A stretch of DNA of 64,000 bases from positions 1 through 64,000 of the forward strand of contig JADGNQ010000016.1 in NCBI GenBank assembly GCA_017883385.1, given 5' to 3'. Positions 7,608 through 11,549 of this stretch are shown piece by piece. The number at the start of each line of letters is the position of its first letter. Positions within the stretch are counted from its first letter, which is position 1. The notes under the pieces are model-generated. The model was not told the origin of the DNA and did not search any database. It worked only from the letters and a program-made list of their open reading frames with translations. The stretch is from Candidatus Sulfotelmatobacter sp. GTDB taxonomy: Bacteria > Acidobacteriota > Terriglobia > Terriglobales > Acidobacteriaceae. Made by a program: the position numbers and the translations under genes.

Positions 7608-8840
7608 TTATGGATGCGGCTGTGCTGCTTCTTCTTCCGTGGCTCCCCGACCTGCATAACCCATCTTGCGGTCGCCCGGAGCGGAACTGATGCGGTCGGC
7701 CTGTTCCCGATTTAACTTCTCGAGAACTGCAAGTGCCTCCTGAGCCTGTTGAGGGTCTCCGTGCCGCTGATAAGCCTTCGCGAGGTTGGCGTAGATCGAT
7801 GGTCTGCCGGGCTCAAGCTGACGTGCCATTTGCAGATGGGTGATCGCATCCTCGAGACGACCGGCGGTAAGGTAAAGGCCGCCAAGGGCAATCTGCGATG
7901 CCGGATCGTTCGGTCGTTGCGCGACGGCCTTCTCCAGAGCCGTTTGCGCTTCCGCGAATTCGGGCTGACCGGGTCTGACTCCGGAGCGAATCAAGGCTGT
8001 TCCAAGAACCGTCAGCAAGGCAGGATTATCATAGCCTCGCTTCACGGCTTCGCGCGCGGAGTGGATTGCTTCGGGGACCTCTCCCTCGAATAGCGCCTGC
8101 TGCGTAGCGGCGAGGTAAGCGATCTCGCTTTCCGGCGCAAGCTTGACCGCCAACTCAAACTGCGGTTTGGCCTCGTCAAGTTGATCGAGCACAGTGAGAA
8201 ACATCGCTCGTTCGTAATGGAGTCGCGCCGATTGCGGCAGATTACGTAGTCCGATGTCCACGACTTTGAGCCCGAGGCCGTAATCTCTATGGTCCATGCA
8301 GGAGTCTGCAACGAACGCGTAGAGCTTCTCGTTTTGTGGCGACAGGGTGGCGGCTTTCTGCAGAGATGCCAAGGCCTCCTGCGGTTGGGCGTTTCCGATG
8401 TACGCTTGCGCCAGCAAATTCTCAACGTCGACGCCGTCGTGTCCGCGACGGCTCAGACCGCTCAGAACATCAATCGCCGGCCTGAACTGGCTGGTTGCCA
8501 CGTAGCAGAGTGCGAGGTTGAAATTCGTCGCGTATTCGTTAGCAACCTGCCGGCGCGCTGCCAGCAAGTGCGGAATAGCCTCGCGGAAAGAGCCTTTGCG
8601 AGTGAGAGTAGTTCCGGTTTGAAGTTCGGCGTCGGCTTCGCTCTGAGACGACAAGCCGCCGTTCTCCGGGGGTGAGCCCGCCTGATTCTGGTTGGTGGAG
8701 AGCTGAGACCTGCCGGACGCGACCTGAGCGTGAATCGCGGCACACTGAAAGAGCGCCAGCATCAACGTGCTGATAACTGCAATGCAGTGTCGACTCGACG
8801 CAGCACGGCGCTTTTCATAGGCCACGCTGTTCACTTCCAT
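7608..8840 (-). CDS. Secreted TPR-repeat protein
   Basis: A 410-residue tetratricopeptide protein and the last gene of a three-gene minus operon. Its ATG (8840) lies inside the end of the upstream CRTAC1 gene (stop at 8831), a 10-base overlap that suggests translational coupling. The N-terminus has a basic stretch and hydrophobic segment ending in AQV, a Sec-type signal ([21 protein letters not shown]). About eight TPR helices pairs cover residues 70-370, for example [20 protein letters not shown] and [21 protein letters not shown]. The C-terminal 40 residues are charged and probably disordered. TPR proteins act as assembly scaffolds, so it probably works outside the cytoplasm together with the CRTAC1 protein. 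That partnership is inferred from gene order. Confidence 0.88.
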
Positions 8841-10570
8841 TTACCCTGGCCCTCGACAATCGTGATGTAGCGATCAACAGGCAGGTCGGTTAGCCGTTCC
8901 GTCTTGCCACTCGGTTGCGGCCATTGTATTTCCAGCCAGTCGATTTTCGTTCGCTTTCCCAGTCCCAAGACCATGCGCGGATCGTGGGAAGAAAGATAAC
9001 TGCCTCCGCCAACTTTGAATTGATGGCGCGTCAGATCGCCGCTTTGATAGGTAATCCTGGCACCGATAGCATCGATGCTGGCCTTCGTGCCCACCAACCG
9101 CAACCCCAGCCAATGGTTCTGCCGGCCGAGATTATTGCGTAAAAGGACGGGTGCGGCGTTGTTCTGGGAAATGAGCACATCCACCGAGCCATCATTGTCG
9201 AAATCACCCAACGCTAGTCCACGCCCAGAAAGAGGCTTGGAAAAAATCGCCCCGCTCTGGCGGCTGACGTTTTCAAAACCTTTCCCAGTATTGTGAAACA
9301 ACAGCATAGGCTCAAGAAACTTTACGTCTTCGACTCTCTTGTCAACGGAGTCATCGGGATGGCCGTTGCAGAGAAGGAGGTCCAGATCGCCATCGTTGTC
9401 GTAATCGAAGAATTTGAGTCCCCATCCGCTCATCAGGCGCGTGGCCGCACCGATGCCGGTCGGAAGAGCCAGATCGCTGAAGGCCTCGTTCTTGTCGTTG
9501 TGATAGAGAGAGTACATCTCGTGATCCACGTTGGCCTCGAACAAATCAATCCAACCATCCTGGTCGTAGTCAGCCGCATCCACTCCCATCCCAGATCGTG
9601 GTTTGCCAAAAGCATTCACCCCAACCCCCGCCAGCAACCCTATTTCTTCAAACCGTCCTTTGCCCCGGTTCGCGAACAAGAAGTTCGGAACGGTGTCATT
9701 GGTTACATAGAGATCCATCCGCCCATCGTTGTTCAAGTCCGCCGCGACCACTCCCCACGCCTTCGCGAGAGACTGCGAAATACCGGACTCCTTGCTGACG
9801 TCGGTAAATGTTCCGTCGCCGTTGTTGCGAAAGAGCCAGCACGGCATGGGATCGTAGATACTGGGAATGCAGTAGAAACGCTCGCCGCTTAGGCGATCAC
9901 CGCAGAACTTCAACTTGGCCTTACTGTAGTCGACGAAGCGGCAGACGAATAGATCGAGCCGTCCGTCGTTGTCGTAGTCAAACCAGACAGCGCTGGTCGC
10001 CCAGCCGGGCGCGCCCACGCCCGCCTTCGCCGTCACGTCCGTGAAGGTACCGTCCCCGTTGTTGTGGTAGAGAATGCTGTGGGGATACTGCGTGACGTAG
10101 AGATCGGGGAATCCGTCACCATCGTAGTCGCCAACGGCGACGCCCATACCGTAGGCATCACCCGGCACGCCAGCTTTGAGTGTCACGTCGGTGAACGTGC
10201 CGTCGCGATTGTTACGATAGAGCGCGTTCCGCAGGGGCTGCGCCGGCTGATAGAAATCGCAGGGTCCACTGTTCACCAAATAGATGTCCATCCAGCCGTC
10301 GTTGTCGTAGTCGAGGAACGCGCAGCCAGCGCCGACCGTCTCTGGCAAATGAGCCATCGGGGAACGGCCGTTCACATGAACCCAAGAGATTCCGCTGGCG
10401 GACGCAGGAATCTCTTCGAAATCAGCCGAGGATTGCTCAACGCGGGGGAGAGCCTCCGCGCGGAACAAACCCGAACCGCTCAGCAGGCTGGCCATCCCGG
10501 TGCAGCCCAGCGTTTGAAGGAAGCGGCGGCGGGAGGCTGGATTGCACCCATCCCTTGAGCTTTTCACCAT
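8831..10570 (-). CDS. CRTAC1/ASPIC-UnbV FG-GAP repeat protein, Tat-exported
   Basis: A 579-residue paralogue of the product of 5845-7581. I choose ATG 10570 ([20 protein letters not shown]), which leaves 19 bases after the upstream TPR stop and gives a proper twin-arginine signal. An in-frame start at 10636, overlapping that gene, is possible. FG-GAP/VCBS calcium loops repeat through residues 80-470 ([82 protein letters not shown]). The C-terminus is an ASPIC/UnbV domain ([22 protein letters not shown]... [15 protein letters not shown]). The position between two TPR genes, overlapping one and nearly touching the other, argues for a joint complex. Biochemical role unknown. Confidence 0.9.
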
Positions 10571-10589
10571 TCGCTGAATCCCTGGTCGT

Positions 10590-11549
10590 TCACTTGGGCG
10601 TCTGCGCACTCCGCGGACTCTTTGCCGCTGCATCACGCTGCAACGCCATCTCTCGGGCGGCTTCAGGCTTCTGTCCGGTGCGGGCGTAGGCAGTAGCCAG
10701 CTGGTAATGTCCAGCCGGATCTCCGGGCTGCATCTTCACGTAGTTTCGCAGCGGCGTGATCGCGTCCGAGAACTTCCCTGCTGAGTTGAGCGACATCCCC
10801 AGCGCCAGATATGCTTCCTGAAATCCCTCATCGAGCTTCGAAGCTCGTGAAAAATGTACGATCGCTTCGTCCCACTGCCCAGACTGACGAGCAACCTCCC
10901 CAAGCATGAATTCCGCCGACGCGTTGTCCGGGGCGATCTTCACTTCATCATTGAACTCTGCCTTGGCCCCTTCAGCGTCCGCCGGAGATTTGGAAAGAAG
11001 GATGCGCCCAATACGATAGTGAATGCCGGCCAACCTGGGCTCTTGCTCGAGGATCTTCTTGTACTCAGCGATGGCCCTATCCCAATTTTCCTGCGACTCG
11101 AAGGCTTCAGCCTCGAGCTGTTCCGCCTGATGCGAGGTAGGCGCCGTCGCGGCCAGTTCCTGCGCTGCCCGTGAAGCAAGTTCCGAGTAGAAGTGGGTCG
11201 TGCTGTAGAGCACGTCGGCATCGTGAGGAAACTCGCGGTTGAGCACAAGCAGTACCTCGACCGCGGTTTCCGTCTGGTCGAGACTCATCGCGCATCGAGC
11301 CGTCGACATGACTGCCTGGTACTTGAGTTGCTTGTCGGCCAGATGGGGCGCCGCCTTTTTCAGGATTGGTAACGCCTCCTGGCAGCGACCCTTGACCGCG
11401 AGGCTGATACCAAGGTGGGCCGAAGATGAAGCGTCGGGCCCGGGTGCTTTTTGCGACGCCTGGGCAGCCGCCGATGCCATGAGCAGTCCGCAAACACAAA
11501 GGACAAAGACACCATCCCGAGAGAGCCGTGCCCTGGAGAATCTAGCCAT
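10590..11549 (-). CDS. Secreted TPR-repeat protein
   Basis: A 319-residue TPR protein and the first gene of the TPR-CRTAC1-TPR operon. The preferred start is ATG 11549, which gives a clean Sec signal ([30 protein letters not shown]); an upstream in-frame ATG at 11603 would add 18 residues. No strong ribosome site supports either. About six TPR units follow, such as [45 protein letters not shown] and [21 protein letters not shown]. The C-terminus is short and charged. A TTGACG...TACGCT promoter candidate lies at 11667-11695 on the minus strand. The function is probably scaffolding or binding in the periplasm or at the surface, as for the neighbouring TPR gene. Confidence 0.86.

Follow-up and report, generated by a model that had tools for sequence, protein, structure and literature searches.

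What does an exported propeller protein of the CRTAC1 family do when its gene lies between genes for tetratricopeptide repeat (TPR) proteins, close to a TonB-dependent receptor (TBDR)? The question is raised by a 64,000-nucleotide stretch of a Candidatus Sulfotelmatobacter sp. draft genome (the window), in which an operon at positions 7608-11549 encodes a TPR protein (TPRa), a CRTAC1-type propeller (CRT2) and another TPR protein (TPRb). The initial annotation proposed that a TPR protein and a propeller together do the job of SusD at the cell surface. We observed a strong linkage between CRTAC1-family (CRT), TPR and TBDR genes. Our best reading is that the pair was recruited repeatedly to TonB receptors and is not a general stand-in for SusD. 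We give about an even chance to the more specific view that, in Acidobacteriota, an exported TPR superhelix and a CRTAC1-type propeller make up an accessory module that Oar-like TonB receptors may or may not have and that works with the receptor.

The window is part of contig C92 in a draft genome of 6.8 Mb and 446 contigs, called the own genome below. Thirty-five genes were called in it, and 31 of its proteins were scanned with Pfam, using E 0.001 for SusD and TPR models. Signal types (Tat-type, for twin-arginine translocation, Sec-type and lipobox) were assigned by regular expressions. The operon and the two genes that accompany it are arranged as follows.

10590-11549, minus strand: TPRa, TPR protein with Sec-type N-terminus, first gene of the operon (Pfam TPR-type models, AlphaFold2 (AF2) model)
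8831-10570, minus strand: CRT2, seven-bladed FG-GAP propeller with UnbV_ASPIC and a Tat-type signal (Pfam, AF2 model)
7608-8840, minus strand: TPRb, TPR protein with Sec-type N-terminus (Pfam TPR, sequence)
5845-7581, plus strand: CRT1, the second protein of the CRTAC1 family, with a Tat-type signal, its gene converging on the operon (Pfam)
1491-5579, minus strand: TBDR1, Oar-like TonB receptor with CarboxypepD_reg and OMP_b-brl_4 (Pfam)

Coordinates, Pfam and motifs agree on a tightly spaced Tat-type propeller gene between two Sec-type TPR genes, as first annotated. A gap of 19 nt separates TPRa from CRT2, and CRT2 overlaps TPRb by 10 nt. The TPRa start is that of the initial annotation (11549; an alternative ATG lies at 11603), while CRT2 starts at the ATG at 10570, a longer open reading frame (ORF) from 10636 overlapping TPRa. 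Both TPR proteins match TPR and TPR-like repeat models at the Pfam threshold and have hydrophobic, Sec-type N-termini. CRT2 matches FG-GAP_3 (3.4e-57) and UnbV_ASPIC (4.9e-17, residues 523-592 of the long ORF) and contains seven Dx[DN]xDG-type motifs, the predicted cation motifs of its blades; calcium blades are treated in PMC3123361. Its Tat-type motif is SRRRFLQ, and all three CRTAC1 proteins of the window carry such a motif. No lipobox was found by regular expression in the TPR or CRT proteins of the window, and promoter- and terminator-like sites are no commoner in the sequence than in shuffles.

Across the own genome, CRT genes keep similar company. Of its 25 UnbV matches, 13 have a TBDR match no more than 5 kb away (67 PF25183 matches, merged by hand to 57 places), against at most 9.3% of the genome expected (P 7e-8); counted by contig, CRT stands near TBDR in 8 of 14 (P 1e-5). 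A TPR gene adjoins CRT in 9/21 cases in the own genome (background 0/60, control loci 1/51), in 34/48 in CRT2-type loci (background 1/68) and in 39/89 in named loci (background 7/181). The Fisher P of 1.5e-15 for the named loci is optimistic, as the loci are related; their Acidobacteriota members give 32/77 against 6/142. Directly downstream of the TBDR, a TPR gene is found in the own genome for 7/10 receptors with CRT within five genes and for 2/20 without; the ten include L057, which had been chosen as a control but proved to contain part of a CRT gene. The corresponding fractions with CRT are 8/18 and 5/19 in the two remaining sets. These counts are lower bounds: the TPR profile, seeded with the window's repeats, missed at least one TPR protein (961 residues), and one or more PF25183 matches (own C2:102873-105461) escaped the TBDR profile. 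The simple gene caller labelled no CRT in 3/80 named loci (L133, L159, L177) and 2/40 collected ones (L105, L107).

The second line of evidence is a conserved five-gene set. CRT2 was used to search 61 genomes, the own genome included, and defines a subfamily of 57-92% identity, against at most 51% for the other matches listed; one named locus, L131, falls in between at 54%. By record titles, the closest named matches belong to Acidobacteriota. Thirty-nine CRT2-type loci and one extra stretch were collected, of which 36/40 show a CRT2-type gene at 55% identity or more, and relatives of TPRa adjoin CRT2 in many loci. TBDR1, CRT1, TPRb, CRT2 and TPRa occur together in eight loci, the window among them. 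The CRTAC1 gene at 5.8 kb, initially described as lone, is therefore a member of this set. In L083, L084, L085 and L087 the five genes are arranged as in the window, L083 having one extra gene, an S9 peptidase, between CRT2 and TPRa. Three further loci have all five in changed order or orientation: L090, from the same genus; L101, from a different family within the order; and L134, from a metagenome-assembled genome of Candidatus Acidiferrales. In L086 and L088 the contig ends after four of the five, and L082 has CRT1, TPRb and CRT2 with no TPRa beside CRT2. Relatives of CRT1 at 74-91% identity stand beside CRT2 and TPR relatives in L082-L088, L090, L101 and L134, and TBDR1 falls in a well-supported clade of eight receptors, all with CRT nearby. 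Because the five genes have been kept together through rearrangements, they likely cooperate, as judged from gene content. Chance or paralogue noise is ruled out by the background counts and by this co-travel.

A more compact layout occurs with other receptors. In L089, L091, L094, L096, L097, L117 and contig C85 of the own genome, the receptor does not belong to the TBDR1 clade, and its gene has a TPR gene and then a CRT2-type gene behind it on one strand (the L097 receptor is cut and absent from the receptor tree). Same-strand triples of TBDR, TPR and CRT number 20 in 18 loci, 12/20 in the order TBDR-TPR-CRT and 3/20 in the order TBDR-CRT-TPR, several with gaps below 50 nt or overlaps; most of these loci were chosen by CRT, and the counts describe order, not frequency. 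Nine plasmid regions were also inspected, from a plasmid gene table that is incomplete by its own description. In Granulicella tundricola MP5ACTX9, plasmid pACIX901 encodes TBDR, a small ORF, TPR, CRT and CRT; another Granulicella region has TBDR-CRT with glycoside hydrolase (GH) families GH30 and GH28. An Acidisarcina polymorpha plasmid has TBDR-CRT-TPR with GH172 and a fucose permease among carbohydrate genes, and on Acidisarcina pACPOL4 a TPR-CRT pair lies close to GH27, without a listed TBDR. Elsewhere, a Spirosoma CRTAC1 gene has neither TBDR nor SusD listed, an Alteromonas FG-GAP protein is encoded two genes before a TBDR in a stretch that also holds a pyrroloquinoline quinone (PQQ) dehydrogenase, and the surroundings of a Phaeobacter CRTAC1 gene include genes for sugar ABC transport and for a cytochrome c peroxidase, again with no TBDR listed.

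CRT and TPR parts are also found fused. By the TPR profile, 7/101 CRT genes in named loci and 1/24 in own contigs are fused to TPRs, and Pfam confirmed 3/3 of the fusions submitted (own C2, L135 and L165, the last in the domain order TPR, FG-GAP, UnbV). Such fusions and tight operons suggest that CRT and TPR act together, and gene order and co-travel suggest that the pair acts with the receptor. Two of the fusions (own C2:87112-90951 and L135:3304-7206) combine FG-GAP, UnbV_ASPIC, an AhpC/TSA redoxin and TPRs in a single protein. On own contig C85 (L036:340-3225), the gene immediately preceding CRTAC1 specifies a protein that combines TPRs with a cytochrome c554-like part. Genes for proteins of 960-969 residues precede CRT in the Acidobacteriota loci L162, L165 and L167, twice with a CRT-TPR fusion following. 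No TBDR was found by profile in these three loci or near the C85 TPR-cytochrome gene.

Structure models were built for both partners. The AF2 model of CRT2 (34 sequences, pLDDT 91.8) matches murine CRTAC1 (9etn_A) with Z 41.2, a root-mean-square deviation of 2.5 over 456 residues and 25% identity, spanning model residues 46-575. The next chain, LGI1, reaches Z 30.7 and covers residues 47-480 only. CRT2 is thus, by its predicted structure, a full-length CRTAC1 relative; a profile match to the CRTAC1 family has E 1.2e-38. In the Foldseek list, PVL-type fungal lectins, which are sugar binders, hold ranks 2-8 behind CRTAC1, a point in favour of the accessory-module view. The TPRa model (8 sequences, pLDDT 89.1) is predicted to be all-helical and to lack a loop-rich subdomain; among known structures it is similar to TPR superhelices of designed proteins and of O-GlcNAc transferase. 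Generic TPR superhelices led the structure search, with no SusD chain in the best 50 of 1635 matches.

How far, then, does the pair take the place of SusD? Pfam gave no SusD family match in the 31 window proteins, TPRa and TPRb included, and a search of the own genome for PF14322 and PF07980 found none. Among 60 Acidobacteriota genomes, SusD_RagB occurs in 1, PF25183 in 60 and UnbV in 23. The 37/60 genomes without a UnbV match include 9 of the 20 with at least 30 TBDR candidates, and one of these nine has 140. We examined 20 TBDR places in seven of the nine, where 18 receptors were recognised with a readable neighbour. No TPR gene lies directly downstream of any (0/18); counting both sides, 1/18 adjoins a TPR gene (upstream, L257). 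Ten of the 16 same-strand downstream genes were scanned with Pfam and none has TPRs; they encode three sulfatases, a phosphodiesterase, a phosphatidylinositol-specific phospholipase C, two cyclomaltodextrinases, an oxidoreductase, a thiamine pyrophosphate enzyme and one protein without a match. Given the 0/18, SusD-free receptors can do without the TPR-CRT pair, and TBDR-rich genomes without CRT rule out a universal replacement of SusD. In L256 (G106) and L258 (G117), from genomes without SusD_RagB or UnbV, an Oar-like TBDR followed by a cyclomaltodextrinase gene forms a minimal maltodextrin cluster. Within genus g20, one species, G104, has 13 UnbV matches and two others, G093 and G115, have none, although all three have at least 68 TBDR candidates, which suggests fast gain or loss of CRT.

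The slot directly downstream of the TBDR, where SusD would be expected, holds an S9 gene in the window and TPR in the 12/20 triples noted above. In Acidobacteriota, the TPR protein rather than CRTAC1 appears to occupy it. Elsewhere CRTAC1 occurs together with SusD: Hymenobacter volaticus has GH127, TBDR, SusD and a CRTAC1-like gene in order, and Gemmatirosa kalamazoonensis has SusD, CRT, CRT, TBDR, SusD. By gene order in these two plasmid-collection records, CRTAC1 stands beside SusD in Hymenobacter and Gemmatirosa and does not replace it; the other plasmid regions inspected lack this arrangement. The Gemmatirosa plasmid stretch (L210:934-16121) contains two very long CRTAC1 ORFs of 1150 and 1580 residues between SusD and TBDR-SusD, the first with a lipobox by pattern. 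A SusD-CRT linkage in the Gemmatimonadota genome G120 is unsupported, with 45 UnbV matches, no PF14322 and one partial PF07980. Of the proposal that a TPR protein and a propeller do SusD's job, the position of the TPR gene in the compact operon is what stands; generality, exclusivity and anchoring do not.

Anchoring was assessed across the sets. A lipobox occurs in 0/23 CRT proteins of own contigs, 0/52 of CRT2-type loci, 2/88 of a further set and 1/10 of Poribacteria, and in 0/16, 1/39, 2/49 and 1/7 of the respective TPR proteins. The own-genome values argue against the surface location assumed at first, and the lack of a lipid anchor makes a SusD-like lid unlikely. Tat-type motifs are present in 8/23, 45/52, 32/88 and 0/10 of the CRT proteins in the same order of sets. 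Predicted Tat export therefore describes the three CRT proteins of the window, but not those of the own genome overall, most of which have a hydrophobic N-terminus where the motif is lacking.

Further features of the window are listed below.

2-1387, minus strand: S9 peptidase, DPPIV-type, truncated where the window begins; next gene downstream of TBDR1 (DPPIV_N 4.9e-51)
11728-13671, plus strand: GH127 beta-L-arabinofuranosidase-type enzyme, divergent from TPRa (Pfam)
13644-15566, plus strand: DUF885 protein (Pfam)
15589-18399, plus strand: DUF5695 protein (Pfam)
20694-22223, minus strand: another TPR protein with Sec-type N-terminus, belonging to the TBDR2 cluster (Pfam)
26218-29568, minus strand: TBDR2, second Oar-like TonB receptor (Pfam)
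33580-35343, minus strand: third CRTAC1-family protein, with a Tat-type signal (Pfam, signal test)
35444-36955, minus strand: partner TPR protein, encoded upstream of the 33.6-kb CRT gene (Pfam)

Both receptors carry PF13620 and PF25183 (CarboxypepD_reg and a large beta barrel). As first annotated, the partners do recur at 33.6-36.9 kb, and a TPR gene does lie at 20.7 kb. An HExxH motif was sought in the DUF885 protein of the window and not found. At 30725-32965, after a gene for a periplasmic sugar-binding type protein, a histidine kinase with an N-terminal 3-keto-disaccharide hydrolase domain (PF06439) is encoded, which looks like a sugar sensor.

A glycan context is plain in the window and in the two plasmid-bearing strains, Granulicella and Acidisarcina. 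The initial statement that the pair always lies in glycan clusters with TonB receptors and no SusD fits this window but not the genome, where 12/25 UnbV matches lie more than 5 kb from a TBDR. The steadiest companion of the five-gene set is the S9/DPPIV peptidase, present in 6/8 complete sets: it is the downstream neighbour in the window, L083, L084, L085 and L087, and stands beside CRT1 in L090. GH127 accompanies the set in the window, L083, L084 and, cut, L090; DUF5695 in the window, L090 and L134, and also in L082; DUF885 also in L084. GH127 is a beta-L-arabinofuranosidase family that includes HypBA1, which acts on hydroxyproline-linked beta-L-arabinosides. Combined with a peptidase of prolyl type, this hints at hydroxyproline-rich glycoproteins of plants. 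With the peptidase as the steadiest companion, these neighbours do not favour the arabinan proposed initially. Since GH127, DUF5695 and the peptidase often travel with the set, our guess for the window's ligand is an arabinosylated, proline-rich plant glycoprotein, or fragments of it, rather than arabinan. Across CRT2-type loci the neighbours are varied: glycosidases occur, but so do peptidases, multiheme cytochromes and a PQQ enzyme. In L091, genes for two multiheme cytochromes are accompanied by a GntR-UTRA regulator; the PQQ enzyme is in L117, and L097 has GH3. In G104, one locus has LacI, GH3 and GH30 and another GH38; its remaining loci have none of these among the scanned genes.

Several observations weigh against a module tied to receptors and glycans. 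The more distant CRT2 relatives in L099, L103, L104, L109 and L118 have no TPR gene adjoining CRT2. No enzyme family dominates among the first 25 of 174 neighbour families, a tally of 88/146 deduplicated neighbours of CRT2-type genes that dropped those below 150 or above 1000 residues, cut genes and the CRT, TPR and TBDR genes themselves. For the plant-glycoprotein guess in particular, L101 and L134 have no S9 peptidase in the part of their surroundings that was scanned. In a tree built from 62 TBDRs (FastTree, with a long-branch warning; its 20 rows without CRT all come from the own genome) there are 12 changes of the label "CRT nearby", at least ten of them forced by well-supported branches. 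Shuffled labels give a mean of 17.1; CRT-linked receptors are therefore clustered and the counts above are not independent. The same comparison suggests that the pair occurs with receptors of many lineages and is shared among near relatives. CRT numbers do not track TBDR numbers over 60 genomes (Spearman 0.17, P 0.20), the latter being first-look candidates of which about 13 a genome were scored. In Poribacteria, a group treated in PMC3909097, TPR adjoins CRT in 5/10 cases and, by profile, a TBDR lies within five genes in 0/10. Plasmids of Streptomyces and haloarchaea also carry CRTAC1 homologues. Taken together, the Poribacteria pairs and these plasmid relatives show that the pair is wider than TonB uptake, which may not be what it basically serves.

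TPR proteins often act as scaffolds, and propellers often provide a binding face. We postulate a complex of TPR and CRT: the TPR protein would be its scaffold, and the propeller, stabilised by cations, would supply the face that binds. Together with the receptor, this complex would act most probably on the periplasmic side, or once secreted, and would receive or hold an incoming large ligand or present it to co-encoded hydrolases. A periplasmic receiving complex is our first choice, and export by the receptor the boldest alternative. In the export scenario, the Oar-like TBDR works outward, the TPR protein is a periplasmic escort, and folded CRTAC1 is released across the outer membrane. Tat-type motifs, in the window and in most CRT2-type loci, would bring a folded cargo to the periplasm, and a cargo gene would sit in the receptor's operon. 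We nevertheless consider this scenario unlikely: only 8/23 CRT proteins of the own genome have the motif, only some Oar-like TBDRs carry CRT while others stand beside hydrolases like nutrient receptors, and Poribacteria have the pair with no TBDR near.

The surface capture proposed at the outset, in which TPR and propeller would replace SusD both as the lid of the TBDR and as its binder of glycans, is in our view very unlikely. The TPR gene does follow the TBDR in the compact operon as SusD follows SusC, no SusD was found in the own genome, and the SusD relative BT_3984 is described as having four TPRs, with conserved parts proposed to bind SusC (PMC2954216). However, the missing lipobox of the window proteins, the purely helical TPRa model without a loop-rich subdomain, the CRT genes beside SusD in two other phyla and the TBDR-rich genomes without SusD or CRT, where no TBDR is followed by TPR (0/18), all speak against it. 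A different view, possible though on the doubtful side, takes CRT-TPR as an assembly or electron-transfer accessory of the envelope that came to lie by TBDRs in Acidobacteriota by happenstance. The CRT-AhpC/TSA-TPR fusions, the cytochrome c554-like TPR protein before CRT on C85, the multiheme cytochromes after TBDR-TPR-CRT in L091 and cytochrome genes near CRT in Granulicella are all in line with such a role, as is a CRTAC1 gene reported to be flanked by hydrazine-synthase-like genes (PMC12758564). Yet no cytochrome is among the 31 scanned window proteins, and the tight TBDR-TPR-CRT operon with its LacI, GntR-UTRA and hybrid-sensor neighbours points to substrate-specific use. The accessory module working with the receptor remains our preferred reading. 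A bolder version, to which we lend limited credence, regards TBDR-TPR-CRTAC1 as a separately evolved TonB macromolecule transporter, with a bare TPR superhelix in SusD's place at the barrel and CRTAC1 either docked to it as an interchangeable binding head or exported as cargo by the receptor. If true, bacterial relatives of a vertebrate extracellular protein would serve in outer-membrane transport.

As a whole, this looks like a real, well-conserved association and a new, so far undescribed type of TonB-receptor gene cluster. In the searched literature, mostly outside subscription journals, we found no description of a TPR-CRTAC1-TBDR module and no described function of bacterial CRTAC1 members. 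The sampled Acidobacteriota genomes encode 3 to 140 Oar-like receptor candidates each, nearly always without SusD, and we know of no account of how SusD-free Oar-like receptors handle large substrates. The conserved receptor-TPR-CRTAC1 operon, also found on plasmids of two named strains, offers a defined gene set for testing this, and the widespread bacterial CRTAC1 family gains a first testable setting. Acidobacteria are widespread in soils, and ASPIC/UnbV and TonB-receptor genes of Solibacter appear in a table of paralogues in the same report (PMC3174227).

With the CRTAC1 family, known from the vertebrate cartilage protein (PDB 9etn) and from bacterial entries named "CRTAC1 family protein", CRT2 shares the seven FG-GAP blades and UnbV_ASPIC; it differs in having a Tat-type bacterial signal and in being encoded with TPR proteins and a TBDR. 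Related propellers are more distant: PVL-type fungal lectins (2bwm, 4tqm) give a TM-score by target of 0.50-0.55 at 11-18% identity, and aldos-2-ulose dehydratase (4a7k) matches the CRT2 model with Z about 28 at low identity. The receptors of the window share their architecture, by Pfam families, with Oar of Myxococcus xanthus, the label "Oar-like" being that of the initial annotation. Oar is reported to be required to secrete PopC (PMC6434023), whereas no cargo is known for the window's receptors. Like the SusC/SusD loci of Bacteroidota, the compact operon has a TBDR followed by a TPR-bearing partner gene, and glycosidases and regulators are nearby in the window, the two plasmid strains and some other loci. 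Unlike them, TBDR-TPR-CRT has no SusD domain or lipobox; its receptor is of the PF25183 type, and its partner is a bare TPR superhelix.

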